64,000 nucleotides of DNA from Tetradesmus obliquus (taxonomy: Eukaryota > Chlorophyta > Chlorophyceae > Sphaeropleales > Scenedesmaceae): NCBI GenBank assembly GCA_030272155.1, contig CP126194.1:3339501-3403500 (forward strand). Direction: 5' to 3'. Made by a program: the position numbers and the translations under genes. This document shows positions 11,601 through 63,948 of this stretch, piece by piece. Below the pieces are notes generated by a model, which searched no databases, was not told the DNA's origin, and saw nothing but the letters and a program-made list of their open reading frames with translations. Position 1 is the stretch's first letter, and each line of letters begins with the position of its first letter.

Positions 11601-13045
11601 CGCACACGTGGAGCCTGTCACAGGTGTACAGCTTTACCGTAAAGCTCCTACAACATCAGTAATCTTCACTGTCAAGGGGCTGTTGTGTTTGTCTCCATTT
11701 GTTGCGCTGCTGCAGGTGGATGGAGGCCGCGCCCAGCCTGCTGCAGCAGCTCTGCAGAGACGGCGTGCTCAACTCCGGCGGCTCAATAGCACCCCTTGCC
11801 TCTGGCATCGCGCACAGCTGCCTCGAGCTAGGCCTGCTGCAGCAGCATCTGCACCAAGTCATCAGGCCCAGCCTGGCAGCTGGCTGCGCTGCTGTGTGTG
11901 AGGCGCTGCGCAGGGAGATGCCTCGCTGCAGCTTCCAGCAGCCGCTGGGGGGCTACTTTGTGTGGGTGCAGCTGCCGCAGGTGAGGGCGCATGCATGACA
12001 GGCAGTTTGCGGAGGGATGCATCCCGCACGTTTTGACTGTGTAACAGATGCAGCTGCGGATCGGGCGATGCAGGTTTATGCATGACAGGTGTCGGGCGTT
12101 GCTCTGGGCATTGTTTTTGTGTTTAAATGCAGCAGCAGTTGGTGTAGGGCAGCTGTACTTGCAGCTGACCACAGTGCTGGTGCTGGTGATGGATGCAGTG
12201 AGTGCTGATTTGCTTAATGTGTGCTGCTTGCCCTGTAGTCTTTGTTCTCCGGATTTCAGCCTGCTGAGGTTTGGGTGTGTCGCGGATTAGCTGGGCTATT
12301 CGCACTTTTTTTGGATTGAGTTGTGCATGGGCCTGTCGCCCCCCTAGGATTTTGCTGTCGGGACAGGATGACGCTTGGCACAGTGCTGGTGCTGGTGATG
12401 GTTGCAGTGGATGCCGCTTCGCACAGTATGTGCTGTTCGCCCTGGATTACACTCTGATTGTGCTTGATTTCAGCCTGCTGAGGCTGCTGGTTTGATACAG
12501 ATTTGCTGGACTAATGACCTTCTTTTGGCTTTGATTGTGGATGGGCCTGTTGCCCTGCTAGGACTCTGCTGCTGGTACAGGATGACGCTTGGCACAGTGC
12601 TGGTGCTGGTGATGGTTGCAGTGGATGTCGCTTAGCACAGTGTGTGCTGATTGCGCTTGATCTTGATTAGATCTTGCTTGATTACATATGTCATTCAGGT
12701 GATTTTGGACCCCATGAGCCTTGTCTGGCTCCTTAGTGGGTGGGCCTGCGGCCCTACTTTGGTAACTTTGGTAAACAAGAGTGTGTCGCGCCTGTTAACC
12801 ACCCTACTGCCTGACTCGTACTTTGCACCGCATCTGTGCTGCTGTGCCAGGTGTGTGCAGAGGAGCTGCTGCAGCTGGCAGAGGCCAAGCACCGCGTGCG
12901 CTTCGTGCCTGGGCGGGCCTGCCAGGGCCTGCGGCACATGGTGCGCCTCAGCTTCAGCTTCTATCAGCCTGATGAGCTGCAGCAGGGCGTGGCGCGGCTG
13001 GCGGCAGCATTGGACGACTATTTGGGGGGCGAGCGAGCTGCATGA
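8619..13045 (+). CDS. PLP-dependent class I/II aminotransferase (2-aminoadipate aminotransferase-like)
   Basis: Ten exons: 8619-8864, 9151-9239, 9476-9582, 9699-9820, 10041-10117, 10389-10432, 10633-10737, 11016-11244, 11716-11980, 12851-13045; about 492 aa. Intron 1 needs a GC-AG splice (CCAG|GCAAGC), which restores the family motif as DFSAGQ followed by PGPRLLPLD. Other fold-type I motifs: YGTVQGYSSFR, ITAGVSHGLDLACRLL, PGDAVLVEAPTYF, IPIHNNPAG, IVADEVYQLLSFPG (PLP-binding Asp about residue 254), and SMGSFSKIMAPGMRLGW with the Schiff-base Lys about residue 331. The C-terminal exon has FVPGRACQGLRHMVRLSFSF, which should hold the carboxylate-binding Arg. Substrate cannot be read from sequence; closest in feel to LysN/YER152C-type enzymes. 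The first 45 residues are Ala/Arg/Ser-rich and could be an organelle transit peptide. A Ser/Gly-rich insert sits before the Lys motif. Confidence 0.9.
12164..12770 (+). repeat. About 214-base tandem repeat, three diverged copies, in intron 9
   Basis: The phrase CACAGTGCTGGTGCTGGTGA recurs at about 12170, 12379 and 12593 (spacings 209 and 214). Each copy also carries a GGGCCTG...CCC block, an ACAGGATGACGCTTGG block and TTTCAGCCTGCTGAGG. The third copy is partial and fades near 12770. All lie inside the 870-base last intron of the aminotransferase gene. Confidence 0.8.
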
Positions 13046-19349: not shown

Positions 19350-21033
19350 TCAGATGCCCAACACAAACTCGCTGAGCTTCTGCACCAGCGTGCGCGAGCG
19401 CTGCGGCAGCGCCTGCGCCCCTGACACGTCTACCCTGTACGGCCGCAGCGGCCCCTGCTGCGGTGCACGCAGCCGCGGGCCAGGCGAGCTGTTGGCCCCT
19501 GACCCATACGCCTCAACCAGCGCGCGGTGCTGCGGCTCGAGCTGCTTCACGCCAATGATGAGGGTGCTGCTCAACTGCTCGCCGCTGCGCAGCAGTGCGC
19601 GCTGCGCGCCGTACTTTGTCTGGTACTGCACGTGCATGAAGTTGCTGTGCAGCGGCGCGCCAAAAGTACCCCACTGCAATATGTCCCCGCAGCGCTGGAA
19701 CTCCTGCGGGGCGGCATAACATGTGATGCTGGCACCGTCAGCAAGTTCCAAAGGCGTGAAATAGCACCCTTCACGGAAGACACACTCTTCCATCTGGAGA
19801 ACAAGACGGACGGTGGGCGAGGATGCTGCTTGCAGGACATGTGCCAGGTCATCAGGGCGAAAGCTTTGCAGGAAAGCATAACACCCTCACTAGGCGCAGT
19901 CGTAGACATCGCAATCCAATGCAACAACACATAGACATATTGGTGCTACATGTTTGTAGCGTGCACAACGTCGTTTGCAGGCGTTTGAACACAGGCCGCA
20001 GACAACTCACTTGCAGGACCAGCGCCAGGTCATCAGGGCTGAAGCCAAACACCGTGACCCATGTGTCCTCGCTCTGCGTCACTGGCTCCACCTGCATCAA
20101 GTTGCTGCCAGGCTGCTGCGCTGCTGCTGCCAGGGGCCCATTGCCCCCAGCGGGTGGGGTGCCAGCACCCGGGCCGTCGACATCTGCAGGCAGGTGAGTA
20201 GCCAGGGAACAATTTAAACCGCACAAAGCAGCACAGAGGCAGCAGGATGAATAGCATCAGCAGGCCATGCATGAGAGGAGCGACATGGTTGAGCTCGTGC
20301 ACCACAACCCTGGCATGTCGACACTGTGCTACCAGCAGATGCTGCACGCATAACCACATTCGTGAAGCACACGCAACAGAGCACGCGAGCTTTATGATAG
20401 ACGGTGCTTGAGCTTCTTGTGCGCTACCCACCAGCACTGCAGCTGCCATCATCATGTATGCTACATGAGCTGTGATGCTGCTGTTGAGTGTGTCCTGCAG
20501 ACACGACCGCTTCTTACCTGACATGAGTGTGTCCTGCAGCCGCATGATTGGCGGTGGCCGTGGTGGCGTTGTGTCTGTATGCACAGAGCCTGGGGGCGTG
20601 ACACTACGGCGTGCAGTAGAAATGGAGCCAGATGCATCGCGCAGGGGGCTGTGTATGCTGCGAGGGGTCCTGAACTCTACTGGCTGCTCGCTGGGCAGTG
20701 TGAACAGCAGCGGAGGGTATTCCTGCAAGCATACAGCAGGCGTTTAACGCAATCGCTCTTTTGTGTATCAGTTGCATCACTGGGCTGCAGTGAGGTCAGG
20801 GGCAACATTTAGAATGCTGCATGCCCTTGCTGTGCTGCCAGCGCGCCAGCCGCTGCTGTGGCAGTTACCGCTGCTGCGCTGAAGCACGCTATGCAGGACA
20901 CAAGCAGTGTGGTGTGACTATCAAACCAAACCAAACACAGTTGCTCAATACCAGCTGGTTATCCATCTGCGCCTTGCTGATGCTAATGACACACAGCAGT
21001 ACAACTCTTGCCCACCTGGCTGACTGCTGCCAT
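19350..21033 (-). CDS. Nucleoporin NUP35/NUP53 (MPPN/RRM-Nup35 domain)
   Basis: Model on the minus strand: 21033-21016 (tentative start exon MAAVSQ), 20722-20518, 20183-20011, 19703-19350; about 250 aa, shorter than the human protein (326). The first long exon has PLLFTLPSEQPVEFRTPRS, a plant-type N-terminal motif. The RRM-Nup35 domain is clear: EDTWVTVFGFSPDDLALVL, then FQRCGDILQWG, then NFMHVQYQTKYGAQRALLR and STLIIGVKQLEPQHR. The C-terminus SRTLVQKLSEFVLGI matches the short amphipathic membrane-binding tail of this family. NUP35 is a scaffold nucleoporin linking the inner ring to the pore membrane. The three C-terminal exons keep phase and homology; the first exon is the weakest part. It is head-to-head with EDC4. 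Confidence 0.87.
19830..19860 (-). repeat. Intronic echo of the NUP35 exon-3 end
   Basis: Within the last NUP35 intron, 19830-19860 repeats the exon end at 20011-20041 with about 85 percent identity. It still reads FRPDDLAHVLQ against FSPDDLALVLQ in the exon. Spacing is 181 bases. The copy lacks the GTGAGT donor. Confidence 0.75.
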
Positions 21034-21475: not shown

Positions 21476-24400
21476 ATGATGTTCGGCTTCCTGGGCAAGG
21501 GAAAGGGCAAAGCAGGGCAGCAGAACGGCCCACCTGTTCAAACAACATCTGCAACAAGCAGTAACATGTTCAGCAGCCAGGCTGCAGCAGCGCTTGCTGC
21601 TTCTGCAGCAGCAGGAAATGTTCCCGGCAATGCAGGGCCTGCACCCACGGGTCGCAGGCTGCAGGGAAGCGACATAACGGTGGATCTGGATGCTTTGAGA
21701 CCGGGGGAAAAAGTGCCGGAGCTGCAGGTAGGTGTCCATCATAGATCAGCAGCGCACATGCGTACAGCAGCGGTTGCAAGGTGGTTTCAGCCAATGCTGT
21801 TTGGATCAAACACTGTATTGAGGGCTAGCAGGCTGCAGATGTACACACACATGATCGTCTTGCCTACAGTAGCACTAAATGCTCCAGCAGTGTGGCGGAC
21901 TGCAAAGCCCGCTGAGTTGCTGACGTCTCTAGTGCATCAGTATGCTCACTCTCACCCCCTGCTTGCACATCGCCTCGGAAGAGACACACCTGCATGCCAT
22001 CACATGCTGAACATTGAAGTATGTCTCCACAACTTCGTTCCTGCAGGTGCAGCCCATCACGCTGCTCAAGTTTGACTACAAGCTGGAGCACACGCAGCAG
22101 GTGGCCATCAGCAGCAGCTTCATCTGCTACGGCCTCAAGGCCGGTCACATCCGCGCCCTCAACCGCAACACTGCCAGCCGGGCGCTCTTTAAGGGCCACC
22201 CCACCAGCCTCTCCCACATGGCCTTCTTTAGTGCGGCAAGCAACCTACTGGCCAGCGCCAGCCGCCAGGGCGACCTGGCGGTGCGGCTGCTGACTGATGG
22301 AGTGGGGTCGGAGGGTGATGCAGTGCCTGCAGAGACGCTGCTCATGCGCGCGCAGCTGGCACTGCCGCCAGGCGCAGAGGTTGCCAGCAGCAGCAGCAGC
22401 AGCCCGCCGGTGAGCTTGGCGTGGCACCCCAGCACGCCGCAGATCCTGGCAGCGGGCGCTGGCGGCAGCGTGAACATCTTCCAGGTGCCTACCACGCCGC
22501 CAGCTGAGCAGCCGCCGGAGCTGAGTGCCCCTGGCATCCAGTATTCGCTGCCCAGCAGCGGCAGCAGCAGCAGCGCTGCTGTTACTGCGGTGGCGTTCTC
22601 GCCTGCAGGAGACCTGCTGGTGGCAGCAGATAGTGCTGGCAGCGTGCACGTGTGGTGGCTTGAGGGAGATGGAGAGGAGGGGGAGGCGCCTATGCTGAGC
22701 TGGCAGCCCTTCAGCGGCAGCAGCGCAGCAGCAGCAGCAGCTGCCGCTGCTGTGGCGAGCGTGCAGTTCCTGCATCAGGCAGATGACGGCAGCAGCATAC
22801 TGATGACCGGCGACGCGCGCAACGCTGCGCTGAAGCTGTGGCTCCTGCTGCCGGCAGCAGCGCTGAACGGCGCAAGCCCGGCATGCCTGCAGGCCATGCA
22901 GTTTGTGTCATCTGCAAACGGCCCCAGCGACGTGTTCTGCCATGCGGTCGTGCAGCGCGAGCTGCAGCTGCTGGTGCTGGCCAACACAGTGCGCAAGCAG
23001 GTGTACACACTGCACTACAGCCTGGGGGGCAGCGGTGCTGCTGCATTCGATTACGCGGCATTCTGGGGTGTCATGCAACCCATATTGAGCCTGGCCACAG
23101 GCCTGGAGGCAGTAGAGTCCCAGGCAGTGCCTGGAGAGGTGGCACCGCAGCAGCTGCTGCTGTACACTGTGCAGACAGATGCAATCCAGCAATACTCGAT
23201 CAACCCGGCGCTGTGCAGCAGCAGCAGTGGCAGCGAGGACGAGGCAGCAGCAGCAGCAGCACTGCCAGGTGCCAGCGTGGCAGCAGCAGATGCAGCTTCA
23301 GCAGCAGCAGGAGGGGCAGCAGCAGCGGCAGATGTTGAGGAAGGGGAGGAGGTAAGCAGCAGCATTACAGCACCCCCTGCAGAGGCAGCGGCTGCACCTA
23401 CAGCAGCGGCAGAGCCTGCAGCAGCAGCTGAGACTCCGGCACCGGTTGCAGCGGCGGTGCCGCCGCCTGCTCAGCTGCCCACGCCTGGGCTGCTGCTGCA
23501 TGCTAAGGCCGCTGAGCAGGACGCAGCAGCACCGGCAGCTGCAGCAGCGGAGCCAGCAGCAGCACCTAGCGCTAAGGCAGATGCACCCAGCCCAGCAGCA
23601 GCAGCAGCAGCGGACGCATCTGCAGATGACAGTGAGACGCAGCAGGAGGCAGCAGCAGTACACGAGAATGCGTCGACAACCACTGTTGTGCCGATCAAGC
23701 TGCCTCCCATGCCCACTAGCAGCCTGCTGCACAGTGCAGAGAAGGCCCCTGCAACCCCAGTTGCCGCCCAGGCACCTGCTGCTGAGCTGCAGGAGGCTTC
23801 AGCAGCAGCGCCTGCAGCAGCAGCAGCATCTGCTGACGTGGCTGCGCTGCAGCAGCAGGTTGCGCAGCTGCTGGAGATGCAGCAGGCGATGGCAGCGCAG
23901 CTGCAGGCCAGCAGCCAGCAGACAGTTGCAGGTGAGGCTGACTGTACAGCTGCGTGTGGGCTTGCGGGGTTAGGGTTGAATAACCACCTACCCCCTCCCC
24001 TGCAAACCGTCTCAAGCAACACAACAAACTCACGCAAGCATGCTGTGCGCCGCACGCTCACCCCCAAAGTTTTTGGCCCACTGTTTGCAGGTGTGAAGGG
24101 CGAGCTGTCGCGCGCGCTGAACGCCACCATCAAGCATGTGCCTGTGCCTCCTGCCAAACACACACAGTCCCGCTCATTCTCATACATTCTCTCCGTGCTC
24201 ACAGGTGTGAAGGGCGAGCTGTCGCGCGCACTGAAAGCAACTGAGGCCAGCCTGGCCAAGCAGGTGGAGGCCAGCCTCAAGGCCACTGCCAAGCGCAGCG
24301 AGGAGGAGCGGCGCAAGGCGGCAGCCAAGGAGCGCGGCGAGCTGGCGGCACAGCTGGAGAAGAGCATGGCGGCACAGCTGGGGCAGGTGCGCAGGGATTG

Positions 24401-26868
24401 CTGGCGGTAGTGGTTGGCCATGGCCGATTTGTTTGTGTTCATGGGCGTATAGTGTGAGGTGCGGTGGCAGCGCAGCTGGAGAAGGCCGTGGCGGCACAGC
24501 TGGGGCAGGTGCGCGGGGGTTGCTGGGTTGCTGGTTGCTGATTGTGGCCGGTGGTTTACATGTGGAGGATTGTGTTTTTGGTGAGGTGTTGGTGCAGATG
24601 GAGAAGAGCATGGCGGCACAGCTGGGCCAGGTGCGGCGGCCTGCAAGGTTGCTGGTCACTGATTGAGGGCTGTTGAAAAACGTGTGGTTGATGATAGCTC
24701 TTCTTCACCCGAGTCTCACATACACGCTGCTGCTGTGCTGCACTGAAACTTTCCTGTGCAATGCCGCCTGCAGGTGTCCGCTGCGCTGCAGCGTGACCTG
24801 CTAAAGGGTATGGCCGATGCAGCGCGCGAGCAGTCGCGGGCCACAGTCACAGCCGTGGTCAACTCTGTGAGCCCTGTAGTGGCGCAGGCAGTGGCGGGCA
24901 GCCTGCAGCGGGAGCTGGCTGGCAGCGCAGGAGGTGAGGCTGGATGGCGCAGCTGCTGCTCGCCTACTTTTGGAGATGAGATGCGTGGAAGTATGCTTTC
25001 TGCCTGCTTCCTGCAACATATGGAGGTATTTGCAAGCTAGCAGGACGATTGTGGGTGCAGTTGGTGCTCTTGAAGTGGGTGCCACTGTCTACTGCTACCG
25101 TGACAGCGTTGGCTGGTGGTTACAGCAGCTGTGCCAAGCGCAACTGCTGTGCCTCATGTGTGCATTGGTGTGTGTGGTGGCTGCAGGCGGCGGCCAGCTG
25201 GCTGCTGTGCTGTACTGGCTAGCTGGCTGCAGCTGCAGCTTGGTTGTGCATTGTTTGGCTGTACGCGCAGGCTGTGTGCAGTGTGCTCCCTGGTTCACTG
25301 CTTGATGCATGTGTATGGCTGCAGGCGGCGGCCAGCTGGCGGCTGTGCTTGAGCGCAGCCTGGCCAGCAGCCTGGCTCAGCCGCTGCACGAGGCGCTGCG
25401 GGAGAACTTTGCCGCCTCCATCATCCCAGCCTTCGAGCGCGCCACACAGGTGCGCTCAGCGTGTGTGGAAGTGGCACAGAGAGTGCCACAGATGTAGCGG
25501 TAGAGAGAGATGTGCATGCGTAACTTTGCGGCCTCCATCATCTCAGCCTTCGAGCGCGCCACGCAGGTGCGCGTGTGACAGTGTTTGAAAGCGTGTGAAA
25601 GTGCGACAGATACAGTGGTATAGAATGGTGTGGGCATGTGTATGTGTGTGTGGCTTGCATTCTGCACCTGATTTGGCGCAAAGCGTTGTTGCTGTGTGCG
25701 TTTGCAAGCACAATATAATCACACAGCTAAGCCTTGGCATATACCGAGGCAGCCAAGCACCCCAGCCCTTCTGCAACAACTTCTATCCTGCTACGGCTGC
25801 TCCTGTCATCTCTTGTACCACTACCCCTGGCAGGTCATGTTTGGCCAGGTGGAGTCAGCCTTCACTGCTTGGCTGGCAGACAGCAGCCGCACCGCAGGCG
25901 CGGCTCAGTCTGATGCGGCTGCCTCGCTCAGCAGCAGCCTGCAGCAGCTGCAGGCGGTGGTGGGCAGCATGCGGGGTGACCTGGCTGACACCAGCCGCTC
26001 CCTCAGCCGCATTGCCAGCAGCACAGCCAGCAGGTGCGTGTGATGTTATCCTAGCTGTGTGAGCGTGGGGCCTTTGTCAGTGGTCCTGCCGTGCTGCCGA
26101 CTGCTGCGTTCGCAATCATGCATTGATTTGGGTTCTGCCGCGGCCAGCAGCACAGCCAGCAAGTATGTGTACTCATTCTGCTGGCACTCCTCCGCCTTGT
26201 TATCTCTGTTCATTCTGTTCTTCATGTTATTTCTGTTGTTATCTTGTAGGGCTGCTGAGGCCAGCTCTAGCGGTGGCGCGGGGCCGCGCACCGCGCAGCA
26301 GCTGGAGGCGGGCGCAGGCGCAGCGGGAGCAGCAGCAGCAGCGCCTGCTGACCCTCGCATCGAGATCGGGTCGCTGATGTCTGTGCGCAAGTATGATGAG
26401 GCGCTGGTGAAGGCGCTCAACACAGCCAGCCTGGAGGTGCTTGTGTGGGCCTGCAAGCAGGTGGGGCGTCAGCTCAGGCCTTTGTTTTTGTGTGTGTTTT
26501 GTGTCATGTTTTGGCGCTTGTGCCACTAGTAAAGCACTATTTAATGCCCATGGCAAGCAGGGCCTGCAAGCAGGTGGGGTGTTGAACTTGGTGACACTTG
26601 TCTTGCTGTGCCATGTGTCGTGACTTGCCGGTTTTGATTTGCGCAGCGGGAAGGTACTGCGCAGAGCCTGTGCATACCCATGCTGCTGCTTGGCGGCCAG
26701 TTCAGTATCGCCAGGAGGGTGCAGCTGCTGTCTGCTGAGCTCCCGCAGCAGTGTGCGGCTGGACCATTGCTGGGTGCGCTTGCGAGCATGTCGTTACCAC
26801 TGCAGCAGCTTCTAACTTGCTGCAGCAGCTTGCTTTGTTGCGCCACTTTTGTTCTAAGCTGCCACCTA

Positions 26869-26901
<33 letters not shown>

Positions 26902-27212
26902 AGGTTGACCCCCAGGTCGTGCTGGGCGGCAGCTCCGTGGCCCTCAGCCAGACCACGCTCCTCTCCCTGGTGCACCAGCTGTCATCGGGGCTGGTCAATG
27001 ACGCTGCCACACCTCTGAAGCTGGCTTGGCTGGCTGAGGCGGCACCTGTGGTGGACCCACATGATCCGGTGACTGCGCCACACCTCAAGGTGGTGCTGAC
27101 CGGGGTGATGAGCAGCCTGAAGGCGCTTGTGAATTCGCTGCCGCAGAATGACGTGATGGCCAAGAAGGGCAAGATCACGCTGCACCTGTTCAACAGCCTG
27201 CTGCACCAGTAG
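21476..27212 (+). CDS. EDC4/VARICOSE, mRNA-decapping scaffold
   Basis: Eight exons: 21476-21727, 22047-23931, 24205-24386, 24774-24933, 25325-25449, 25834-26033, 26250-26460, 26904-27212; about 1107 aa. Residues about 85-440 are the WD40-like domain (FICYGLKAGHIRALNRNTASRALFKGH in pieces; LLASASRQGDL; VTAVAFSPAGDLLVAADSAG). Residues about 450-690 are an Ala/Glu/Pro-rich linker. Residues about 715-900 are a helical coiled-coil segment (SLAKQVEASLKATAKRSEEE, LRENFAASIIPAFERAT). The C-terminal alpha-helical domain has MSVRKYDEALVKALNTASLE, WACKQVDPQVV, LSLVHQLSSGL and the typical end LKALVNSLPQND. In plants and animals EDC4 bridges DCP1, DCP2 and XRN in P-bodies and activates decapping. Almost every intron from 23932 on contains an echo of a flanking splice junction. 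Confidence 0.92.
24091..24240 (+). repeat. EDC4 acceptor echo (spacing 114)
   Basis: GTGTGAAGGGCGAGCTGTCG, preceded by an acceptor CAG, occurs at 24091 and again at the true exon start 24205. The upstream copy reads GVKGELSRALNATIK and the exon reads GVKGELSRALKATEA. The first copy has its own usable acceptor (TGTTTGCAG), so an alternative 3' splice site is possible. Confidence 0.85.
24354..24660 (+). repeat. EDC4 donor echo, three copies at exactly 122-base spacing
   Basis: The exon end (about 24354-24386, reading LEKSMAAQLGQ, followed by GTGCG) recurs at about 24476 and 24598. Spacings are 122 and 122. All three copies keep the Q|GTGCG donor and the frame (EKAVAAQLGQ, EKSMAAQLGQ). Confidence 0.88.
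25181..25350 (+). repeat. EDC4 acceptor echo (spacing 138)
   Basis: GGCTGCAGGCGGCGGCCAGC occurs around 25179 and again across the true acceptor around 25317. The copy keeps an AG acceptor and reads GGQLAAVL as in the exon. Confidence 0.85.
25404..25575 (+). repeat. EDC4 donor echo (spacing 117)
   Basis: The exon end reading NFAASIIPAFERATQ, followed by GTGCGC, is repeated at 25522-25566 as NFAASIISAFERATQ, again followed by GTGCGC. Confidence 0.88.
26014..26165 (+). repeat. EDC4 donor echo (spacing 129)
   Basis: GCCAGCAGCACAGCCAGCA at the exon end (26014) recurs at 26143. The copy is followed by AGTATGTG instead of GGTGCGTG. Confidence 0.75.
26446..26590 (+). repeat. EDC4 donor echo (spacing 113)
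   Basis: GGCCTGCAAGCAGGTGGGG spans the exon-intron border at 26448-26466 and recurs at 26561-26579. The copy preserves the CAG|GTGGGG donor. Confidence 0.8.
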
Positions 27213-28899
27213 GTAGGCAGGGGTAGGGTGAGGTGCGGGTTGAAGAGGGCAGCACAGGAGAGGTGTCGCGGCTCGTGGCAGGGCGGTGGCAGTTCCTGGT
27301 GTTGGCACTTGTATCGGTGGTGAAATGTGGATTGCGCAAAGGTGGCCGGGTGGGGCCGCGGCTGGCAGTGGTGGTAGGCAATTCGCAGCAGATGGTTGCA
27401 ACCGTGGAGCGGATTGTGGGGACGTAGCACGTGCGTGTTTGCAGACTGTTGTTGCAGGTAGTTGCAGTGACAGCAGGCTGCGCTGGGATGGACAGAGTCG
27501 GCAAGGCGATGAGCTGAAACGTGTTGTGGCAGGGCAGGGCTGTGTGCATGGTGTTCAAGACGTGTTGGATGTCGTGATTTTTGTAGAAGCTGCAGCTTGT
27601 GACAGCATTGCGGTTAGGAGGTTACGCTTGCGGCAACCGCATGTGGTGAAAGCCGTCTGCTGTTCTGGGTGCATGCTGTTGGCCGTGTCTGTGCATTGTA
27701 GGCAGGTGTGCACGTTGTGCAGGTTGACTTCATTGTGCCAGCGCATTGTGTGCTCTTGTCCACGTGCGCCAGTACCAATGCCAATAGTATGGCCACACGA
27801 AATTGCCTGCTGTGGGTGCAGCAGCAGCTGCCCAGAATGGACAAGTGCAGTGTACAGCAGTCTCACAGCTATTGAACTCTCGACCATGACAGCTTGATGT
27901 CTGGTGTTGCCGGTATGTTTCTCAGGCGTTGTAACATGTGAGTGTCGCGCATGTTGTGCGTGTGTTAGGCCCTTTTTGAGCCAACTATATGTGCTTGGTC
28001 GCAGTTGCTGTGGATGCTTGCTACATGTGTGCAGCATGCTTCCTACATATGTGCAGCATGCGCGCCCGTGAAACTGTCTGCTGCTCAGGAAACCCTCACG
28101 ACATTTGCAGCAAATCTGCCACCACCGACCGCAACCATCTTACACGAGATCAAGGTCTAGCCAACTTTCCTGTATAACGCAGTTCTTGCGTATTCGGCTG
28201 GAGCAGCGCCGAACGAGCGCTGGTCGTGCAATCTTTCGGCGCGAACAGCGACATTCAGGCACGACCCAAGCACGGCTGCTGACGTCAAGCACGTAAATGT
28301 TCCGAAAGCAGTTGATCTGATGATGAAAATGCAACTAAGGCGCCTGCCCTGATGTTATGACAGTGGAGCCGACGCTGCAGTTGCGCAGCGCAGGTCGCAC
28401 CTATAACTTTCGAGCACGCAGCGCCAGTCCAGCAAAGCCTCATTCACCACCACATCACGTGGAATTCAGGATTCTCTCGTCATATAGAGAGTTCTCCGAG
28501 TGCTCCACACCCACTCGCCCTCCGTCCCGCCCTTCACTATCCTGTCAGCCCCCGTCATTCTATACGCTTGGTGCGTGTCAGACTCTACAATAGTATTATA
28601 GTACTCTGACAGCTTTAAATAGTGGCAGCGCAGGAGCGCAGGCGCTGGACCGTCATCAAGCAGCAGCAGCTGGCAACTGCGTAGCACGCCATGTCATGGC
28701 AGCACGTCGCAGCCACATCTGTTTAAGCGACTGCGCAGCGCAACAGTTTCCTTGAATACAGCGTTTATGTTTGCAATAAGCATCAGACACGTTCGCGCAG
28801 CAGCAGGCAGATCGCTCAGCCGGTTCCCGCCCTTACTCAGCTGTCCTGCGACATTGCTTTCACTCTTGCTTGCAGGTCATCTTAAACACACAATCAAAC
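27213..28899. other. EDC4 3' region and promoter of the secreted repeat protein
   Basis: A TGTAA signal at 27930-27934 would give EDC4 a 720-base 3' untranslated region. The right part should hold the promoter of the secreted-protein gene: TTTAAATAG at about 28613 and a possible 5' untranslated intron acceptor (CTTGCAG at 28869-28875). No gene is recognised. Confidence 0.4.
27930..27934 (+). terminator. Polyadenylation signal (TGTAA), EDC4
   Basis: First clear TGTAA downstream of the EDC4 stop codon. Confidence 0.45.
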
Positions 28900-31800
28900 A
28901 TGAAGCTGGCTATTGCCGTGCTGGCGCTGCTGTGCATCGGCGCACACGCCCATGGCATCCCCAGCGTCTCAATCGAGAAGACGAACGAGGGCGTCAAGTC
29001 GCCCGAGGTCACTGTGAAGCTGCCAGCAGTCACTGTGCCAGTGCCTAAGATCAATGTGTCCATGCCAGAGATCCGCCTGCCCAAGATCAGCATGCCAGGC
29101 CAGGGCAAGAACATCAACTTGCAGGTGCCCACAGTGGACGTGCAGGGCCTGCTGAACGCTGCGCTGAACAAGCCCATGCCTAGCATCAACATGACAAACC
29201 TGGCAGCCCTGCTGTCCAAGCCAGCCATGCCTAGCCTCAACCTGGACCTGAGCGGCCTGCTGTCCAAGCCCTCAGTCAACATCAGCGCGCTGGCAGGCAT
29301 GATCCCCAAGCCAAGCATCGACCTGTCTGGCCTGCAGGTGAGGAGGCGGGGGTTGCGCTGCTGGTGACACAGCCGTGTGATGCTGCTGTGTTAATTTTGT
29401 GGTAAATGATATGCCAGCATGCTTTTTGCAGTGTAGTATTCTAGAAGCATGCAGGCAGAATTACAAGGCTGTGTGTGTCAGCAGCATCCAGGTTGCTTGC
29501 ATGCACAGCAGCAGCACTGCCGCTATACCAGCAGCCAACTGCTTTTGCTGTGCAGCAATCTTAAAGGTGAGGACCTAGTGCTGTGAAGGTTTCGGCTGGG
29601 CTGCAAACTTCTTCAGACTCTGCTGGTGCATCTCGCAGGACTGCCTGCCACATGCCATGCCTTCAGCCCGCAAGCTAGCTGCACATTCAGCACGCAAGCA
29701 CAGCTGTGCGCTGTCACCCTGGCTGCTGCCAGCAAAGCACTCATCATCACATGCCGTACTCCTCTGTGTATGAATCTTCCTGCAGGGCTTGATGGCGTTG
29801 CATGCTGTGAACACATACCATTGCATGCTGTGCTGCAAACAACAACATAAAATCCTCTTGGTTGCCCCACCTGCATGCAGGCCCTGATGGCTGCCAAGCC
29901 CAGCGTGTCAGTGGAGAACATGCCAGATGCTGCCGAGATCATCAGCGCCCTGCTCGCCAAGGGCACCAGCGACATGAACGCCGTCGTGGCCCTGATCAGC
30001 GCCCTCAGCACCAAGCCCAACATCACGCTGCCCACCGTGGCGCTGAACATCCCCCAGATCAACATGCCCCAGATGCCGACGATCAACATGCCCAACATCA
30101 ACCTGCCTCAGATGCCCAGCGTGGACCTCAACATGCTGGTCAAGGCCGCAACAGCACTCAAGGGCAACAGGTGCGGCAGAATTGCTGGGATCTGATGATG
30201 TGTAGTGGCTGAAGAATGCGGCAAGCTGTGTGGAAGCAACCCAGCATGCTGTTTGTCATTGCATCAATGTGGCTGCTGTTGCGAGCCAGCCGTCCTGCGG
30301 CAGGGTTTGCAGGGGCGGCAGCAAACCAGCAGCGGCAGTAGCAGCAGTGGCATCTGCTGCACATAGTGTGTAGCTGCTGCCTGACACTATCGTAATCAAG
30401 GATAGGGCTACACAACTCTCAACACAGCTGTGAATGTGCAACACACTACTCACCAATGCGTGTGCCCTACCGCCTGCAGGGAGCCCGCTGAGATCGCCAC
30501 CCAGGTGGTGGGCATGATCAACAGCCTCATGAACGCCAAGCCCGCCTTCCCCGCCCTCAACCTGACCATCCCCAAGCCAGTGTTCCCCAGCTTCAACTTC
30601 TCCACCCCCCAGATCGACATCAGCGGCCTGGTGGCAGCAGCAGCCAACATGAAGCCCATGCCCAGCATTGACCTGAGCGGCCTGGCCACCCTGGCCCTGA
30701 GCAAGCCCATGCCCCAGATCAACCTGGCCCTGCCAGACAGTGAGTGCCATTGTTTTGACTGCCGTTTGAATGTCCTGCTGATGCTTGTAGAGCACGCTGT
30801 GATGTGCCGCTTGCTTGTGACGAATAATATAGCATGCCAGTGATCAGCTGGCGCAGCAGCAGCTGCCTATTGTTTGCAAGCATGCAGAGTGCAGAACCCG
30901 CCAGCATGCCTCTCATATACCATACCACAGCAGCACCCACTAACACGCTGCCACCTATCTACCCCACCTTCCTGCCACCTTCCTTCCAGTCACCGCTCTG
31001 ACCAACCTGGCCCTGAACAAGCAGCACGTGAACCTGACCCTGCCCTCAATTGAGGCGCTGGTCAACATCGCTGCCGCCAAGGCCAGCCTGCTGCCCAACA
31101 ACATCACGCTGCTGCCCGAGGTGACAGCCATCCTGAGCACCACCAAGCTGCCCAGCGTGGACCTAAGCGCCATCACCAGCATGCTGCGCAAGCCCAACAT
31201 CGACCTGAGCGGCCTCACCGTGAGTGGCCAGTAGCAACACACACTTGCACCACGCAGCTCCAGCAACACTGATAACAGTTTGCATGGATACATACCATCA
31301 TGCCTGTGTACCTGGTTGTTTGAGCGGCCTCACCATGAGAGGCTCCTGCGGCTGCATAGCTCTTGCAGCAAGCCGCTGTGGCGGCAGCGCTGACGGTTTG
31401 GATGCCACCATGCTTGGTTGTTTTGAGCGGCCTCAATGTGAGTGCACATCTTGTGGCTGCAGCATTTTCACCAATCAATCATGTTCAACATCAACTTGTG
31501 TGTTCTGTCGAGTTTGCAATCGCGTACACAAGCATGCGCTGTGTGTTTAAAACATGGTATCTCCTGCACCTGCGCTGCATCTGACTTTGTTGCCTGGTGC
31601 TGTATGTGTGCTGCTGCTGCTGCTGCTGCAGTCCATGCTGCAGAAGCCCAACGTGACTCTGCCAGACGTGAACGCCATCCTCACCGCAGCCCTGGCACAG
31701 CACACCGCCAACATGCAGGTGGGATAAAGGTTACAAACTCTTTAGATGGCTGCCGCGCTGATGCTTGCATACCCGTCCTTGCTTGCGCTTGTACATAACA

Positions 31801-40766: not shown

Positions 40767-43551
40767 TGCGGAGCAGCAAGACTGGCAAGAAATCGCAGGC
40801 AGCAGCACGTCTGATGCGTCCTCTGGCGCACTGATAGTGTACACAAGTGGCACTACAGGCAGGCCGAAGGGGGCGCTGCACACTCACGGGTGAGCAGTTG
40901 CTGCTGCTGCTGCTTCTGCTGCTTGGGGAGGATGGTGGTGTAGCTGGCAGCAGCAGCAGCTGCCATGCGCCACGCATACTGCTGATAGCAAGCAACAGCC
41001 ACACAGCTTACCATGAAGCAGAGCTGATCACCACCAGTCAGAGCGGCTATCCTGCCTGAAGCGTGCAACCTCCCAACCCTTTTCTCACCCAGCTCCCCTG
41101 ACATGCTTAGGCATGGCCCTGTGTTGCAGCATGCTGTTGCTTTGCAGCACCCTCTGCTGCCCTGCAGCTGCTGCCATCTATCACTACAACCCGCACGCCC
41201 ATTGCATATGCGCTACTGCCACTGCCTATGCACTTGCTGCATATGCAGGAGCCTTGCCGCGCAGGTGGAGTGCCTCACGCGCGCCTGGCAGTGGCAGCCG
41301 TCAGACGTGATGCTGCACGCGCTGCCGCTGCACCACGTGCACGGCATCATCAACGGCCTCTACTGCGCACACTACAGCGGCGCTGCCATCAGCTTCTTGC
41401 CCAAGTTCTCACCCGCTGCAGTGTGGCAGCAGCTCATGGTGGGTGGCTTGGTTGGCTGCTTGTATTTACCTCTGCGTGTGGTGTGCTAGTGAGGGATGCT
41501 GTGGCATGGGCTGCTGCTGCTGCTGCTGCTCGCCCGGTTACCAATAGCTTCATGCTCAAGTTGTCGCCCACTGCAGCGTGGCAGCAGCTCATGATGGGCG
41601 GCTTGGATGCAAGAGTGGCTGCTTGTGTGTGCTGCGCGTGTGTGATGCGCTAGTAGGGGATGCTGAGCTGCCTCCGCGTGCGTGCTTGGCTTGCAGGTAT
41701 GTGCTACGTGCAGCATCCTCATCCTCTGCACTTTGGCTGCTGTACCACTACACCTGACCTTGTTATGACGTCACAATGTAACATATTAATCTGCAGGAGG
41801 GTGACGTGTCAGTGCTCATGGCGGTGCCCACCATGTACAGCTACCTGCTCTCACACTACGAGTCACACATGTCGCCAGAGGAGCAGCACGCAGCGCGCGC
41901 AGCAGCAGCGCGGCTGCGCCTGACTGTGAGCGGCTCCGCGGCTGCTCCTGTGCCGCTGCTGCAGCGCTGGCAGGCCCTGTCTGGGCAGCGGCTGCTGGAG
42001 CGCTACGGCATGACGGAGACAGGCATGATCCTCAGCAACCCTTATGAGGTGCGGGGCAGGCGTTGGAGTGATTGTATGCGATGCTTACAGATGTAGGGTA
42101 GTTGAACACTGTCATGCCGTGAGTCCAACACGTTACAAATGTGGCAGTAGCTGAGCTCGTCTGGGTGCTTGCATGCAACCTTCTGCAGTTGAGTCTTCTG
42201 ACATACACACCGGCAGCTCTTGCAGCTCAGCCAGCTGCACCCTGCTGCTTCTGCAACTGCACTGCAGGGTGAGCGGCGTCCAGGGTTTGTAGGGCTGCCG
42301 CTGCCTGGTGTAGAAGTGAAGGTGGTGCAACAAAGCAGCAGCAGCAATGGCAACGGCAATGGCAGCGGTGATGCCGCAAATGAACCTGCAGCCAGCAATG
42401 AGGACTCCGGTGCAGAAGGTGGGCAGAAGGCCTGTGGCTGTGGCTTGCTGCTGCATATGCAGCAGCACGCGCATGCCCTGATGAACCTGTTGGCACAGCC
42501 GTGCAACCATGTCTGCTACCAGCTGCAGCACCCTGCATAACATATGCACTGCTGCTGCTCCTTGCATCAAAGCTTTCACCGTGCTGCCACGTGTAGAGTT
42601 TCAGCAGCCTGCTTTGCACACTATCAGTGCCTGGCTAGCCTGTGGGTCCAACGCCTCCCAACACAAGTTGCTGAAACTCCCTCCTGCCGCCTTCCTGCTG
42701 CTGCTGTTGCCGCTGCTGTTCGGTCTCTCGCCAAACGCCGTTGCAGTGCTGCGCCAGGGTGAGCTGGCGGTGCGCGGCCCCATGCTGTTCCGCGAGTACT
42801 GGGGCCGCCCCCAAGCCACGGCTGAGGCTTTTGATGGGGAGGGCTACTTCTTGACTGGCGACACAGTCAGCCTGGAGGGCAGCCCACCTTACTACAGGGT
42901 GAGCACACATGCGGCCATAAACATTGAGCTATGTTATGTGCTTTTCTCATATGTTTTGATGTGTCCGGCTGGGCACTTGGTGAAGGTTGCATTATTGGCC
43001 AGGTATGTCCTTGGAGTGCCTGTGTGCCAGCAAGGCATCACCAGGCGGGCCAGCAGCCGGCACAGCAGTGAAGCCCTCTCCATACGTTGCTGCTATCATT
43101 CCTGCCGTCTCTGCTGCTGCTGCTGCCGCTGCTGCAGATCCTGGGCCGCAGCAGCGTGGACATCATCAAGTCTGGCGGCTTCAAGATCTCTGCGCTGGAC
43201 ATTGAGGGGGCGCTGCTGCACCACGCTGACGTGGCAGAGGCAGCAGTGCTAGGCCTGCCTGATGAAGCCCTAGGCGAGGTTGTGGCAGCACTCATTGTAC
43301 CAAAAGCAGCATCAAAACCAGCAGCAAATGAGGCTGGTAGCGATGCAGCAAAGACTGGTGATGTGCTGCTGGGGCAGCTGAAAGGGCTTGCCAGGCGTGA
43401 GCTGGCTTCATATTGTTTGCCGCGCGTGTGGCGGCTGCTGGATGCGCCGCTGCCGCGCAATGCGATGGGCAAGGTGAACAAGAAGCAGCTGCTGAAGGAG
43501 TTCTTCCCCGAGCAGGCTGCTGCTGCTGCTGCTGCTGCTGGGGTGAAATAG
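38754..43551 (+). CDS. Malonyl-CoA synthetase-like acyl-CoA synthetase (ACSF3/AAE13/MatB group)
   Basis: Eight exons: 38754-38827, 38961-39207, 40618-40889, 41249-41438, 41797-42048, 42268-42418, 42747-42898, 43138-43551; about 583 aa. The AMP-binding motif IVYTSGTTGRPKGALHTHG (about residues 179-197) is complete. Then SLAAQVECLTRAW, MLHALPLHHVHGIINGL, LERYGMTETGMILSNPYE followed by GERRPGFVGLPLPGVEV, FLTGDTV, and SGGFKISALDIEGALLHH; the catalytic Lys lies in LPRNAMGKVNKKQL near the end. The ERRPGxVG and SNPYEG features are those of malonyl-CoA synthetases, which make malonyl-CoA from malonate, CoA and ATP, in plants in cytosol or mitochondria. The first exon begins MEILRAAARHKGSLAVKH with an in-frame stop upstream; no clear transit peptide, so a 5' exon may be missing. 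Intron 2 is 1.4 kb and holds sequence unlike the rest. Confidence 0.91.
41393..41690 (+). repeat. Tandem duplication across the exon-4 donor of the acyl-CoA synthetase
   Basis: The exon end reading LPKFSPAAVWQQLM|GTGGGTGGCTTG (caagtt at 41402) is repeated 155 bases on as LKLSPTAAWQQLM followed by ATGGGCGGCTTG. Similarity continues through intronic GGCTGCTTGT and GCTAGT(G)AGGGATGCTG phrases, so exon end and intron start were duplicated together. Confidence 0.85.
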
Positions 43552-43863: not shown

Positions 43864-45334
43864 GGTTGTGGGCTGCTAATTTTCTTGTTTTGGGGTTTCG
43901 GTGAGAATGAGTGCTTGAGGGAATTTGCCGGAGTAACACCCCTGGGCCTGGTGGGTGCAGCAGGTCTTGTGTAGCAGCTGCAGCCAACTGGCTGCAGCCA
44001 CTGCTGAAACATGCGCAGTGCGACACGAGCGCCTGCGCCTGACATGTGCTGTCGCAGTGCGTGACAGTGCAGATCTGACTTGCATTATTGTACGTCCAGT
44101 AACCTTAGGTTGTAGGCTGGCTGTTTGGTCCTTTGGTTGGTGGCTAGATGACGGCAGCATGTTGCCATCAACTCAGGTTCATGGAGCACGAGCCTAACAC
44201 GTGCAACCTCAGGCTCTGCGCAACATCTGGTCAGCAGCTATGTGCAGGCTGCACTGTGCAAATTCAGTCACGCAGCACGAAGCAGAGCGAGTAAAGCAAA
44301 GTAAACAGTGTTACCTCAAGAACAGAACCAATCTAGCACTGTCCCAGGCTCTACAAAACAAACAAGGAGCTGACTGCAGTTCCTACAATCAAATGGCAGC
44401 AGCAGGTGTGCATGCCTCAGTCATACAGCCCCTGCAAAGCTACCAGGTGCTACTTCCTGGCTATCAAGTGATCAAGGAAGCAGGCAAGCACACCAGCGAG
44501 GTTGCAGTAAAGAAACCAAACGACAGGCTCATCACAAGGCATGCATTACAGTTCGCTCACTCCCACCCAGCACTGTTGAGCTGCTGCAGCAGGCCTGCTG
44601 CGCCACACAACAGTGCCAGTCAATCACAGCTCACTATTAGTAGTGGCGATGTGGCAAGCCTTGTCTTCTATGCTGCCTGCTGCTGCAGTGCAGCATCTTG
44701 GCACTGACAGGCAACAACTTGCAACCAGGCGAGGAGCGCAACACACAGCCAAACACCCACAGACACACGCTAGTCACTCCATCGCAGCTAGCTGTCGTGC
44801 AGTGGCTGCTGATGAGTAGCAGCACACGCACGCCACACACTCGCACAGACAGGCATGTGTGCAGCAGCTGCGACACGGCTTGTAGCGCACACCCAGCTGG
44901 CAGGATGTACAGCAGCCCCTCCGGCAGGTACACAATGTGCAAAGATCACACCTGCATGGAATAGATGCAGCATGCAGCTGCGTGCCAGCATGCATTCCAG
45001 GCAGCAACATATGCACACACAACAACTGCTGCTCCAAGTTGTGTTGTGTCCGTGCCATGCACGCGTGGATCACAGCTTTGTGTTTCCGCTTCAGCAGATG
45101 AGTTGCACACATATGAATGTGTGTATATGTTGGGATAAGGTTCTGGCTCGAGTGCTGCAACTACACAACCACACGGGATTCAGCACAAGCGATGCACGCT
45201 GGCCGCTGCATGTGTGTTGTAACAAGCTATGACATGTTATGTCAGCACGTGCATGCGTCACACGCCCGCAGCGACGGCTGACGAGTCACGCACCGCCATG
45301 CGAATGCAGCTCAATCGGCTGGCTCAAGTTGCTG

Positions 45335-45534
45335 CACGTGACGACTGCGCACTGCACGTGACGACTGCGCACTGCACGTGACGACTGCGCACTGCACGTG
45401 ACGACTGCGCACTGCACGTGACGACTGCGCACTGCACGTGACGACTGCGCACTGCACGTGACGACTGCGCACTGCACGTGACGACTGCGCACTGCACGTG
45501 ACGACTGCGCACTGCACGTGACGACTGCGCACTG
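45335..45534. repeat. Perfect 20-base minisatellite, 10 copies, each with a CACGTG palindrome
   Basis: CACGTGACGACTGCGCACTG is repeated 10 times head to tail without a mismatch that I can see. Each unit carries a G-box/E-box core CACGTG, a TGACG bZIP-type half site and TGCGCA. Because 20 is not a multiple of three, the repeat cycles through frames and produces spurious open frames on the minus strand. Confidence 0.95.
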
Positions 45535-46034
45535 CAAGACGCTTCAACAGCCAGCGAGCGTAGGTGATCACGCCACACAGCCAACCCTGCAGGATCACAA
45601 TCAACACCCCGACTCTGACACATCACAGAAAGCAAGCTAGCAGACGATGCTGCTCCAAGCAAACGCACACTGGTGCATACAACCTCAAAAACTGCCTGGC
45701 AATGAAATCACAAAGGCACGCTATGGAACGGAGCACCCTATGTACAGACTCGACCCTGCATGCCCAAAGCCCTATGGAACGCTGCCTAGCTCTACACTGC
45801 ATTGCTGTTGCACAGTACACACAGCACGATTGCTTGCTGCTGTGCACAATGGGCGGGTGGAATCACACTGAAGCAGGGCATTCTCAGACACCCACCCATG
45901 TGACGGAGCACACGCACATACCAGGCTGTCTGCAGCATTGCGGCGGTGCCACCTGCAGCCACAAATCAGCCGGGAGGTGCTACACGACGCCACAGTTGTG
46001 CTGCAGCACCTCCTGCACAGACCACCAACTCCAA

Positions 46035-57400: not shown

Positions 57401-58984
57401 GTGGCCCATTCCGAGCTGAGCAGCACGCCGGCTGCCGCAGCGGTCCATGACAGCACCTGCACAGCTACCGAGCTGTGCACGGCCCGTGTCCTGTTGCTGA
57501 GCAGCGCACTGGCTGCTGCAGCGGTCCATGACAGCACCTGCACAGCTGCCGAGCTGTGCAGAGCTGTTGTCCTGGTGCTGAGCAGCGCACTGGCTGCTGC
57601 AGCGGTCCATGACAGCACCTGCACAGCTGCCGAGCTGTGCAGAGCCGTTGTCCTGTTGCTGAGCAGCGCACTGGCTGCTGCAGCGGTCCATGACAGCACC
57701 TGCACAGCTGCCAAGCTGTGCAGAGCCGTTGTCCTGTTGCTGAGCAGCGCACTGGCTGCTGCAGCGGTCCATGACAGCACCTGCACAGCTGCCGAGCTGT
57801 GCAGAGCCGTTGTCCTGGTGCTGAGCAGCGCACTGGCTGCTGCAGCGGTCCATGACAGCACCTGCACAGCTGCCGAGCTGTGCACGGCCCGTGTCCTGTT
57901 GCTGAGCAGCGCACTGGCTGCTGCAGCGGTCCATGACAGCACCTGCACAGCTGCCGAGCTGTGCAGAGCTGTTGTCCTGGTGCTGAGCAGCGCACTGGCT
58001 GCTGCAGCAATCTGCAACTGCACATACGTGCCCCTGGTACGGGGCACTGTGCGTAGATGTGCCTGCACACAAGTAATGTGCAGGCGGTGCGAGGTTGTAG
58101 CCGTGACCAGCAACAGCAGTGGCGTGGCCACTTGCAGCTGCTGGCGTTGGCGCGTTGGCACCTGCTGCTGCGCTACTGCCGCCAGGGTGGCTGACAGCAG
58201 CAACAACAGCAGGCGCGGGGTTGATGCGGTGACCAGCAGCAGTAACTGCTGGCGTTGGCGCGTTGGCACCTGCTGCTGCGCTACTGCCGCCAGGACCGCT
58301 GGCAGCAACAGCAACAGCAGCAGAATGTGCGATTGCCGACGATGGCGGGTTGTCAGGGTGAGAGCACTGCATGGAGGTGTTGCCCGGGGGCGACCCAGCA
58401 AACAGTTGCTGCTGAGCAGTAGCTTCAGCCTGTTGCTGGGAGCACCAAGTGCTCTCGAAGATGCGTATGTCGCAGAGCTCTGCCGTGCCATTGCGGTGCC
58501 GCCTTGCGTCCAAGATGACCTCTGAGCCGCCAGGCAGCGCCACATGAGCAAAGTAGGTGTCGTCGCGCCCAGCTTCCTCTGCACGCGTGATGACCTCAGC
58601 AGCATACACGCCCACCACCTCACTCGCCTGGATGGCTCGTGTTGCACATACTATGCTTGGTGGGCTGCTCCTGCTGCTGCTACTGCTGCTGTGCCGTGCC
58701 ACGGCACTGCAGGCGTGCAGCCTGTGCCCTGGCGGTGCTGGAAGCACCTCGTAGGCAGTACTTTCGCTTGCAGTGTGCTGTGTGGCAGCTAGCCGTGCCA
58801 GAGAGACGTGCTGCAAAGCAGAGCTTTTGGACACCCACATGCGCTGGCCGCGTATCTTTGACCAGTTCGGCACACTGCCTTTGTCAAGCATATAGTTGCA
58901 GGCGTTGAAAATCGTTTGCGCTGCGTCTGCGCTGACTTTAGCTTGTGCAGTGCAAGCTCGCTCAGGCGGATTGGTGAAGCTCAT
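51340..58984 (-). CDS. Giant SET-domain protein with poly-Gln coiled-coil tail
   Basis: Minus strand. Exon 1, 58984 to about 56958; exon 2, start uncertain (56911 keeps phase but makes a 46-base intron) to 56473; exon 3, 55884-55696; exon 4, 55332-51340. About 2,200 aa. SET halves are far apart: IVCATRAIQASEVVGVYAAE then TYFAHV and VILDARRHRN near residues 125-185, and WRVAGMLQANCMLLPVLDAG, then VVVALANIAAGEELMLDYGPEYW in exon 2. The canonical NHS motif is not seen between them. Between lie Ala/Gly-rich segments and seven 27-residue repeats. Exon 3 is a heptad-like Ala/Gln/Glu/Arg coil (QAEAERTAQAQAETERARLQ). Exon 4 is Gln/Ala-rich, with basic patches and a long Gln/Leu coil, ending KKARQTPKKQQWKQQKKG. 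Exons 2-3-4 join in phase 0, supporting one gene. A protein-lysine methyltransferase is likely, but activity is doubtful if the insert is really translated. Confidence 0.68.
52965..53340 (-). repeat. Three imperfect 45-50-residue repeats in exon 4 of the SET gene
   Basis: AKRHSSLSDRQLQQAHKEG, AKKRSSSTDSQLEQPSKEG and AKSRSSAPDTQLQQQNKEG recur with PQTA and a poly-Ala spacer between. Spacings are about 159 and 136 bases. Each unit has a basic-Ser cluster and could be a phosphorylation or nuclear-targeting element. Confidence 0.85.
57409..58010 (-). repeat. 81-base coding minisatellite, seven full copies plus degenerate ends
   Basis: The unit encodes 27 residues, read as QLGSCAGAVMDRCSSQCAAQ plus HQDNSSA or QQDTGRA variants. 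Copies differ by few bases, alternating H/Q and NSS/NGS/TGR in an order that suggests duplication of blocks. Three Cys per unit (C-x8-C-x3-C) recur. Both strands stay open for over 1.2 kb because 81 is a multiple of three; the + strand frame is a shadow. Confidence 0.92.
58138..58300 (-). repeat. 108-base coding duplication in SET exon 1
   Basis: A block beginning CTGCTGGCGTTGGCGCGTTG at 58138 recurs at 58246. In protein it is a 36-residue duplication (GGSSAAAGANAPTPA both times). Confidence 0.88.

Positions 58985-59670: not shown

Positions 59671-63948
<4,278 letters not shown>

Follow-up and report, generated by a model that had tools for sequence, protein, structure and literature searches.

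Copies of splice borders inside introns of Tetradesmus obliquus as probable remains of tandem duplications of mostly about 100-160 base pairs

Several described systems come close to the repeats considered here. Rogers (1989) is said to have put forward the tandem-duplication model of intron gain, Hellsten et al. (2011) reportedly tested intron gain by tandem duplication in ATP2A2, and Gao and Lynch (2009) reportedly dealt with internal gene duplication. Tandem exon duplication is also known from mutually exclusive exons, and related plant work concerns paired nicks in Arabidopsis and insertions in rice. Two papers treat tandem duplication as an established maker of introns (PMC4974935, PMC3443670), and for potato RdRp the first describes a copied intron-exon structure and, in one intron of that gene, a duplication of 83 base pairs (bp) (PMC4974935). 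For mammalian cells, a further paper describes how the fill-in of staggered breaks by Pol alpha-primase/CST, followed by end joining, leads to sequence-independent tandem duplications, and states that among short (<100 bp) insertions in the human genome small tandem duplications are the most frequent (PMC8355091). Here we analyse a stretch of 64 kilobases (kb) from the alga Tetradesmus obliquus (assembly GCA_030272155.1, 104.7 megabases (Mb); contig CP126194.1, positions 3,339,501-3,403,500), referred to as the window, in which six of the seven introns of the gene EDC4 (enhancer of mRNA decapping 4) hold a copy of one of their own borders with the adjoining exon, an echo. The statistics come from the window and 25 further stretches of 10 kb (L002-L026), together 314 kb or 0.3% of the genome. 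It is likely that the echoes are what is left of ordinary tandem duplications, head to tail and for the most part about 100-160 bp long, in many parts of the algal genome.

The echoes are like tandem-duplication intron gain in being head-to-tail copies within genes that duplicate splice signals, but unlike it in that existing introns lengthen here and the signature of a new intron is not in excess. In-register donor/acceptor repeats of a Rogers-type new intron (at least 30 of 60 positions matching) occurred in 1 of 406 introns against a control rate of 0.21%, and the fit to the intron-gain model that had been proposed from the sequence alone thus found no support. With the duplications of staggered-break repair they share homology-independent, head-to-tail copying of adjacent DNA, which would probably make these the mutational class in question; the human short duplications described in that source are, however, below 100 bp (PMC8355091), whereas the mode here is 100-160 bp with about one cluster per 3 kb. 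As in internal gene or exon duplication, pieces of exons stand in tandem inside a single gene, for example in a six-copy array in a glutamate-cysteine ligase (GCL) gene. Unlike in exon duplication, most echoes copy one border and both borders are echoed in only 11 of 284 introns, although the GCL array and a repeat in a gene for an AGT-like aminotransferase come close. Large numbers of similar-sized, intron-affecting events are also a mark of introners, but the one region searched in its own genome had no dispersed copy.

The identity of EDC4 is supported by the Pfam domains EDC4_C and Ge1_WD40 on the protein record P0002. This record (1107 amino acids (aa), from another T. obliquus strain) follows our eight-exon model over its full length, apart from 9 residue differences and two gaps of one residue each. 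P0001 (OEZ86_006385, from this genome) differs from the model in one residue and has identical downstream borders; it omits 147 residues of the alanine-rich exon 2. P0001 (1660 aa) and P0003 (1661 aa) fuse EDC4 with a downstream secreted-protein gene (window 27213-28900), and P0002 and P0004 stop at the EDC4 stop codon. The gene and its echoes, in window coordinates with spacings in bp, are as follows.

21476..27212, + strand: EDC4 gene, 8 coding exons; model built from the sequence and in agreement with P0002; identity supported by Pfam
21476-21727, 22047-23931, 24205-24386, 24774-24933, + strand: EDC4 exons 1-4
25325-25449, 25834-26033, 26250-26460, 26904-27212, + strand: EDC4 exons 5-8
24088..24127, + strand: echo of the acceptor and start of the exon at 24205; spacing 114, in frame; acceptor 24091 in P0004, +38 aa
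24465..24508, + strand: first echo of the exon end at 24386 and its donor; spacing 122
24595..24630, + strand: second echo of the exon end at 24386 and its donor; spacing 244 = 2 x 122
25178..25211, + strand: echo of the acceptor and start of the exon at 25325; spacing 138, with the exon part of the echo starting at 25187
25522..25572, + strand: echo of the exon end at 25449 and its donor; spacing 117
26143..26170, + strand: echo of the exon end at 26033 and its donor; spacing 129; homology of the intron part undetectable
26560..26582, + strand: echo of the exon end at 26460 and its donor; spacing 113

A sequence-only reading of the window had described six repeats in EDC4 that copy borders, and all of them are present, as seven copies with exactly the spacings given. 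They lie at 24088/24202 (spacing 114, 40 nucleotides (nt), 93% identity), 24336/24458/24580 (122 + 122), 25178/25316 (138, 34 nt, 97%), 25405/25522 (117, 51 nt, 94%), 26014/26143 (129, 28 nt, 89%) and 26447/26560 (113, 23 nt, 96%), and every one of the six crosses a splice border of the model. The same reading had most copies keeping the frame and often a splice dinucleotide, and indeed GT or AG is retained at the matching place in 7/7 copies and the exon parts are free of gaps in 7/7. Its description of the introns as otherwise unrelated has to be given up: the intronic side of the unit recurs as well in five of the seven EDC4 unit pairs (122 A/B, 122 B/C, 138, 117 and 113; P ≤ 0.033 against other introns), and the same test against other introns detected no repeat of the intron part in pairs 114 and 129. 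In the case of spacing 117 the whole unit aligns head to tail (25405-25522 with 25522-25642, 76%), and a 491-bp region around it had itself as the sole match in the 104.7 Mb, in a search that skips very common words.

Recurrent tandem duplication of segments, as had been suspected from the window, was borne out across the 314 kb, and the segments are mostly about 100-160 bp long. Self-comparison (score at least 44) gave 54 direct matches at 100-150 bp against 39 across the whole range of 1,000-4,999 bp. An ungapped scan, which is free of bias against short spacing and left out L017, collapsed to 136 places, 48 of them at 100-159 bp, 2 at 40-59 bp and 18 below 40 bp. Altogether 99 repeat clusters were counted, or roughly one per 3 kb, with 110-119 as the fullest 10-bp class. 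The window is not special in this density, which several other loci exceed. L017, satellite DNA, was kept in the self-match spectrum and the cluster count and omitted from the gene-based counts; satellite-like arrays of 274-bp and 351-bp units, 91-95% alike, take up 6 kb of it (L017:1-6039), at 1.0 Mb of contig C16.

Gene models outside EDC4 are ab initio predictions from a home-made, self-trained hidden Markov model (HMM) gene finder, for which the EDC4 model served as seed; the comparison with proteins covered the genes named here. When trained, it found 7/7 donors and 6/7 acceptors of EDC4, the remaining acceptor being the echo at 24091, as in P0004; because of the seeding this performance is no independent check. 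It also adds tiny exons to EDC4, several of them at echoes, which are missing from all four T. obliquus EDC4 records, and predicted exons shorter than 40 nt were therefore counted as intron.

Border probes of 48 nt were searched against their own intron, with unrelated introns as control; the set comprised all predicted introns from 150 nt upwards, 284 in number. The donor border was copied in its own intron in 43/284 cases (0.15% in unrelated introns) and the acceptor border in 31/284 (0.35%), and a probe from inside the intron was copied in 17/219 (control 0.1%). At a stricter threshold 56 of the 284 introns carried a border echo, against 0.1-0.2% per border in unrelated introns. Among echoes whose alignment reaches within 2 nt of the border, 32/45 donor echoes have GT and 24/28 acceptor echoes have AG. 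That echoes enlarge introns, also part of the sequence-only reading, agrees with the lengths: the median is 414 nt with an echo (n = 56) and 283 nt without (n = 221; 7 introns of intermediate score omitted), a difference of about one unit. There was no preference for frame, the spacing being a multiple of three at 19 of 62 junction places. By locus, L011 (9/16 introns), L006 (6/9) and L020 (5/7) are rich in echoes, and no echo-bearing intron was seen in L002, L003, L004, L008, L018, L019, L022, L023, L024 and L026, each with 3-12 introns.

The homology is not confined to the exon side. Out of 67 pairs of echo or mixed type, 48 echoes remained after the removal of 17 that did not have exactly one border and of 2 that lay at gene ends. 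With one more set aside as too short, local alignment showed homology across the intronic part in 26/47, no detectable homology in 16 and a borderline result in 5. An early impression that the intron half had not been duplicated came from fixed 30-nt windows with near-control identity, and was rejected in view of this result; the low identity arose in part because insertions and deletions had shifted the register.

Are the junctions special, then? The comparison with random placement had been named beforehand as a check on the idea, and its outcome is divided. Against randomly shifted annotation, repeats that pair a coding with a noncoding copy exceed expectation overall (41/89, 25.2 ± 4.1 expected), and wholly noncoding repeats fall short of it (11, 27.1 ± 4.1 expected). 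Among young whole-unit duplications (identity at least 85%, n = 13), however, junction-spanning events number 8 against 8.7 ± 1.6 expected and noncoding ones 3 against 3.2, whereas among old partial duplications (n = 54) they number 40 against 26.8 ± 3.8 and 7 against 19.0 ± 3.4. The overall excess is thus due to the old partial events, with the few young ones placed as expected by chance, and a special role of junctions at the origin of the copies finds no support. The old excess would arise because decay spares the one copy that is under coding constraint. For the same reason, that one of two copies is preserved, donor-border probes are expected to match more often than intron-internal ones, and they do so about twice as often (43/284 and 17/219). 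The junction feature is mainly the survivorship of randomly placed duplications.

We therefore favour ordinary tandem duplication with selective survival. A duplication over a splice border would leave exon sequence and splice site in two copies. It would be tolerated because the spliceosome can go on using one border, so that the intron would grow by one unit and the spare border come to sit inside it. Selection would hold the copy that is still exonic, whereas the spare one would drift along with the intron around it, and border-spanning duplications would stay recognisable longest because the exon copy is preserved. Fill-in and end joining of staggered breaks would be the most likely mutational origin, and most echoes would be neutral. 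This view is carried by units that match head to tail in over half of the echoes, the size class, the placement of young events as expected by chance, the longer introns and the presence of echo sites in gene models.

Several observations weigh against it. Differences between exon and echo fall at codon positions 1, 2 and 3 in 43, 37 and 134 of 214 cases (48 echoes), a third-position share of 0.626; a simulation with a neutral echo and a mainly synonymous exon, which models single-base mutation rates with CpG and base context tabulated only, gave 0.417 ± 0.033, and 0/200 runs reached the observed value. The density of echoes is uneven across loci (chi2 79.6, df 23, without L005 with its one intron), more so than a uniform process would account for. 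Only 13 events make up the young set, and under five looser whole-unit thresholds (19-35 events), which gave no significant junction excess, the counts were slightly over expectation each time (smallest P 0.11); without an identity limit, noncoding events in the whole-unit set were somewhat few (4, 8.3 ± 2.3 expected, P 0.04). In addition, all gene models apart from EDC4 come from the home-made predictor seeded with it.

Two protein records take echo sites, in line with the suggestion that echoes supply extra splice sites. P0004, from another strain, takes the EDC4 echo acceptor and gains 38 aa, one residue of the echo peptide being changed from P to R. P0015 (OEZ86_012514), a GCL, runs to an echo donor and gains 49 aa, which are encoded letter for letter in L006; the prefix of its name is that of this genome. 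In the GCL gene an array at L006:3767-4618 shows one exon end six times, counted from the exon itself, with a spacing of 149-151 bp; about five further copies stand within one intron, with the donor GT kept in some and lost in others. The insert is absent from 12 other aligned GCL records, including S. acutus P0012 and T. obliquus P0017. The two records may be predictions, and for that reason they indicate that echo sites look usable, not that cells use them. A further gene with at least five border echoes, for an OYE-type reductase, lies in L012 (minus strand, 4430-200). There this strain and two other T. obliquus records disagree at several residues; at one of them the echo near 1230 has A, as those records do, rather than V, as judged by eye.

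Another explanation, for which the third-position excess speaks, is that selection keeps a considerable share of the echoes as alternative exons or exon ends that are translated or once were, and that duplication in this way feeds alternative splicing genome-wide; we consider this rather unlikely. The observed share is best fitted, among the values tried, by a ratio of nonsynonymous to synonymous change (dN/dS) of about 0.25 in the echo. The excess holds where the predictor calls the echo intron (81/128 differences, 33 echoes), and differences between echoes within arrays are at third positions in 71/141 cases (19 junctions, bootstrap 0.40-0.61), although successive copies of a changing exon could yield the latter, and base context was only tabulated. 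The peptides in P0004 and P0015 would fit such exons, as would the 33-nt echoes of EDC4 that are flanked by AG and GT, but P0001-P0003 have no EDC4 insert and GCL is a conserved enzyme whose 12 other aligned records lack theirs. Gaps speak on both sides: the exon parts contain 14 in only 12/48 echoes, and in two echoes two one-base gaps cancel each other, but 0/14 are a multiple of three, as the spacings, too, show no preference for threes (19/62). The excess could come from either partial selection on echoes or faster synonymous change in the exon lineage. That the echo copies as such are under coding selection with dN/dS near 0.25, with thousands of duplicated exon edges translated in some transcripts as a continuing genome-wide source of alternative exon ends, seems to us slightly more doubtful still.

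It is very unlikely that a process aimed at exon-intron borders, for example one coupled to splicing, makes the copies and creates new introns. The surplus of coding/noncoding repeats under shifted annotation would suit it, but young whole-unit duplications are without significant enrichment, copies arise inside introns too (17/219), and the 1/406 introns with in-register repeats are within the control rate. Introner-like or other mobile insertions carrying the repeats would account for many intronic insertions of similar size; the 491-bp region tested genome-wide had no other match, however, and far-distance matches within loci are few, which makes them highly improbable. Assembly error is unlikely for the echoes, as judged from the protein records, because the EDC4 echo is also translated, with one residue changed, in another strain's record. 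Since the copies have, moreover, diverged by several percent, an explanation of the pattern as an assembly artefact deserves hardly any credence.

The kind of event is already known; its density and size class do look unusual. No paper on border echoes in Tetradesmus or other algae was found among the titles and abstract openings listed by searches of one open-access library, supplements excluded, and in the main text of the S. obliquus genome paper the words 'intron' and 'tandem' are absent (PMC7590803). Within the literature searched, three things appear to be new: the density, the narrowness of the size class (100-160 bp) and the evidence for border echoes as mainly survivors of random duplications. 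If the density holds genome-wide, extrapolation would give tens of thousands of clusters, and duplication of about 100-160 bp would be a major source of intron length here and a steady maker of spare splice sites. The echoes form a dated series that begins with fresh whole units and ends with faint remnants of exons, and along it the life of a duplicated splice border could be traced. For annotation there is a warning, as P0015 carries a conserved enzyme through an echo donor: echoes can mislead gene prediction and perhaps splicing. The third-position excess, finally, poses a concrete and testable puzzle, namely whether these scars are silent.

The sequence-only reading had extended the pattern to five other genes of the window. 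It stands for the NUP35-like gene, the AMP-binding enzyme and the AGT-like gene; the array in the class I/II aminotransferase is a mostly intronic tandem of 209 bp and no demonstrated border echo, and the secreted-protein gene has only a 23-nt match, with spacing 115, crossing a predicted exon end.

19830..19864, - strand: copy of the exon end at 20011 in the NUP35-like gene; spacing 181; GC replaces GT
41546..41593, + strand: AMP-binding enzyme, echo of the exon end at 41438; spacing 155; AT replaces GT
60415..60791, - strand: aminotransferase class V (AGT-like), predicted 130-nt exon piece repeated; spacing 247, 95%
62622..62659, - strand: exon start at 62564 echoed together with its acceptor in the AGT-like gene; spacing 96, AG kept
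12170..12661, + strand: class I/II aminotransferase, 2.3 copies of a 209-214 bp tandem unit, mostly within a predicted intron

In the AGT-like gene, GT follows both copies of the 130-nt exon piece. The window gave no Rfam match at the gathering threshold and no tRNA. Two other tandem repeats were seen in it: in a predicted coding stretch at 57415-58008 a repeat of 81 bp, a length divisible by three, occurs in 7 copies with 94% matches, and at 45332-45536 there are 10 copies of a 20-bp unit with 100% matches, a young minisatellite.

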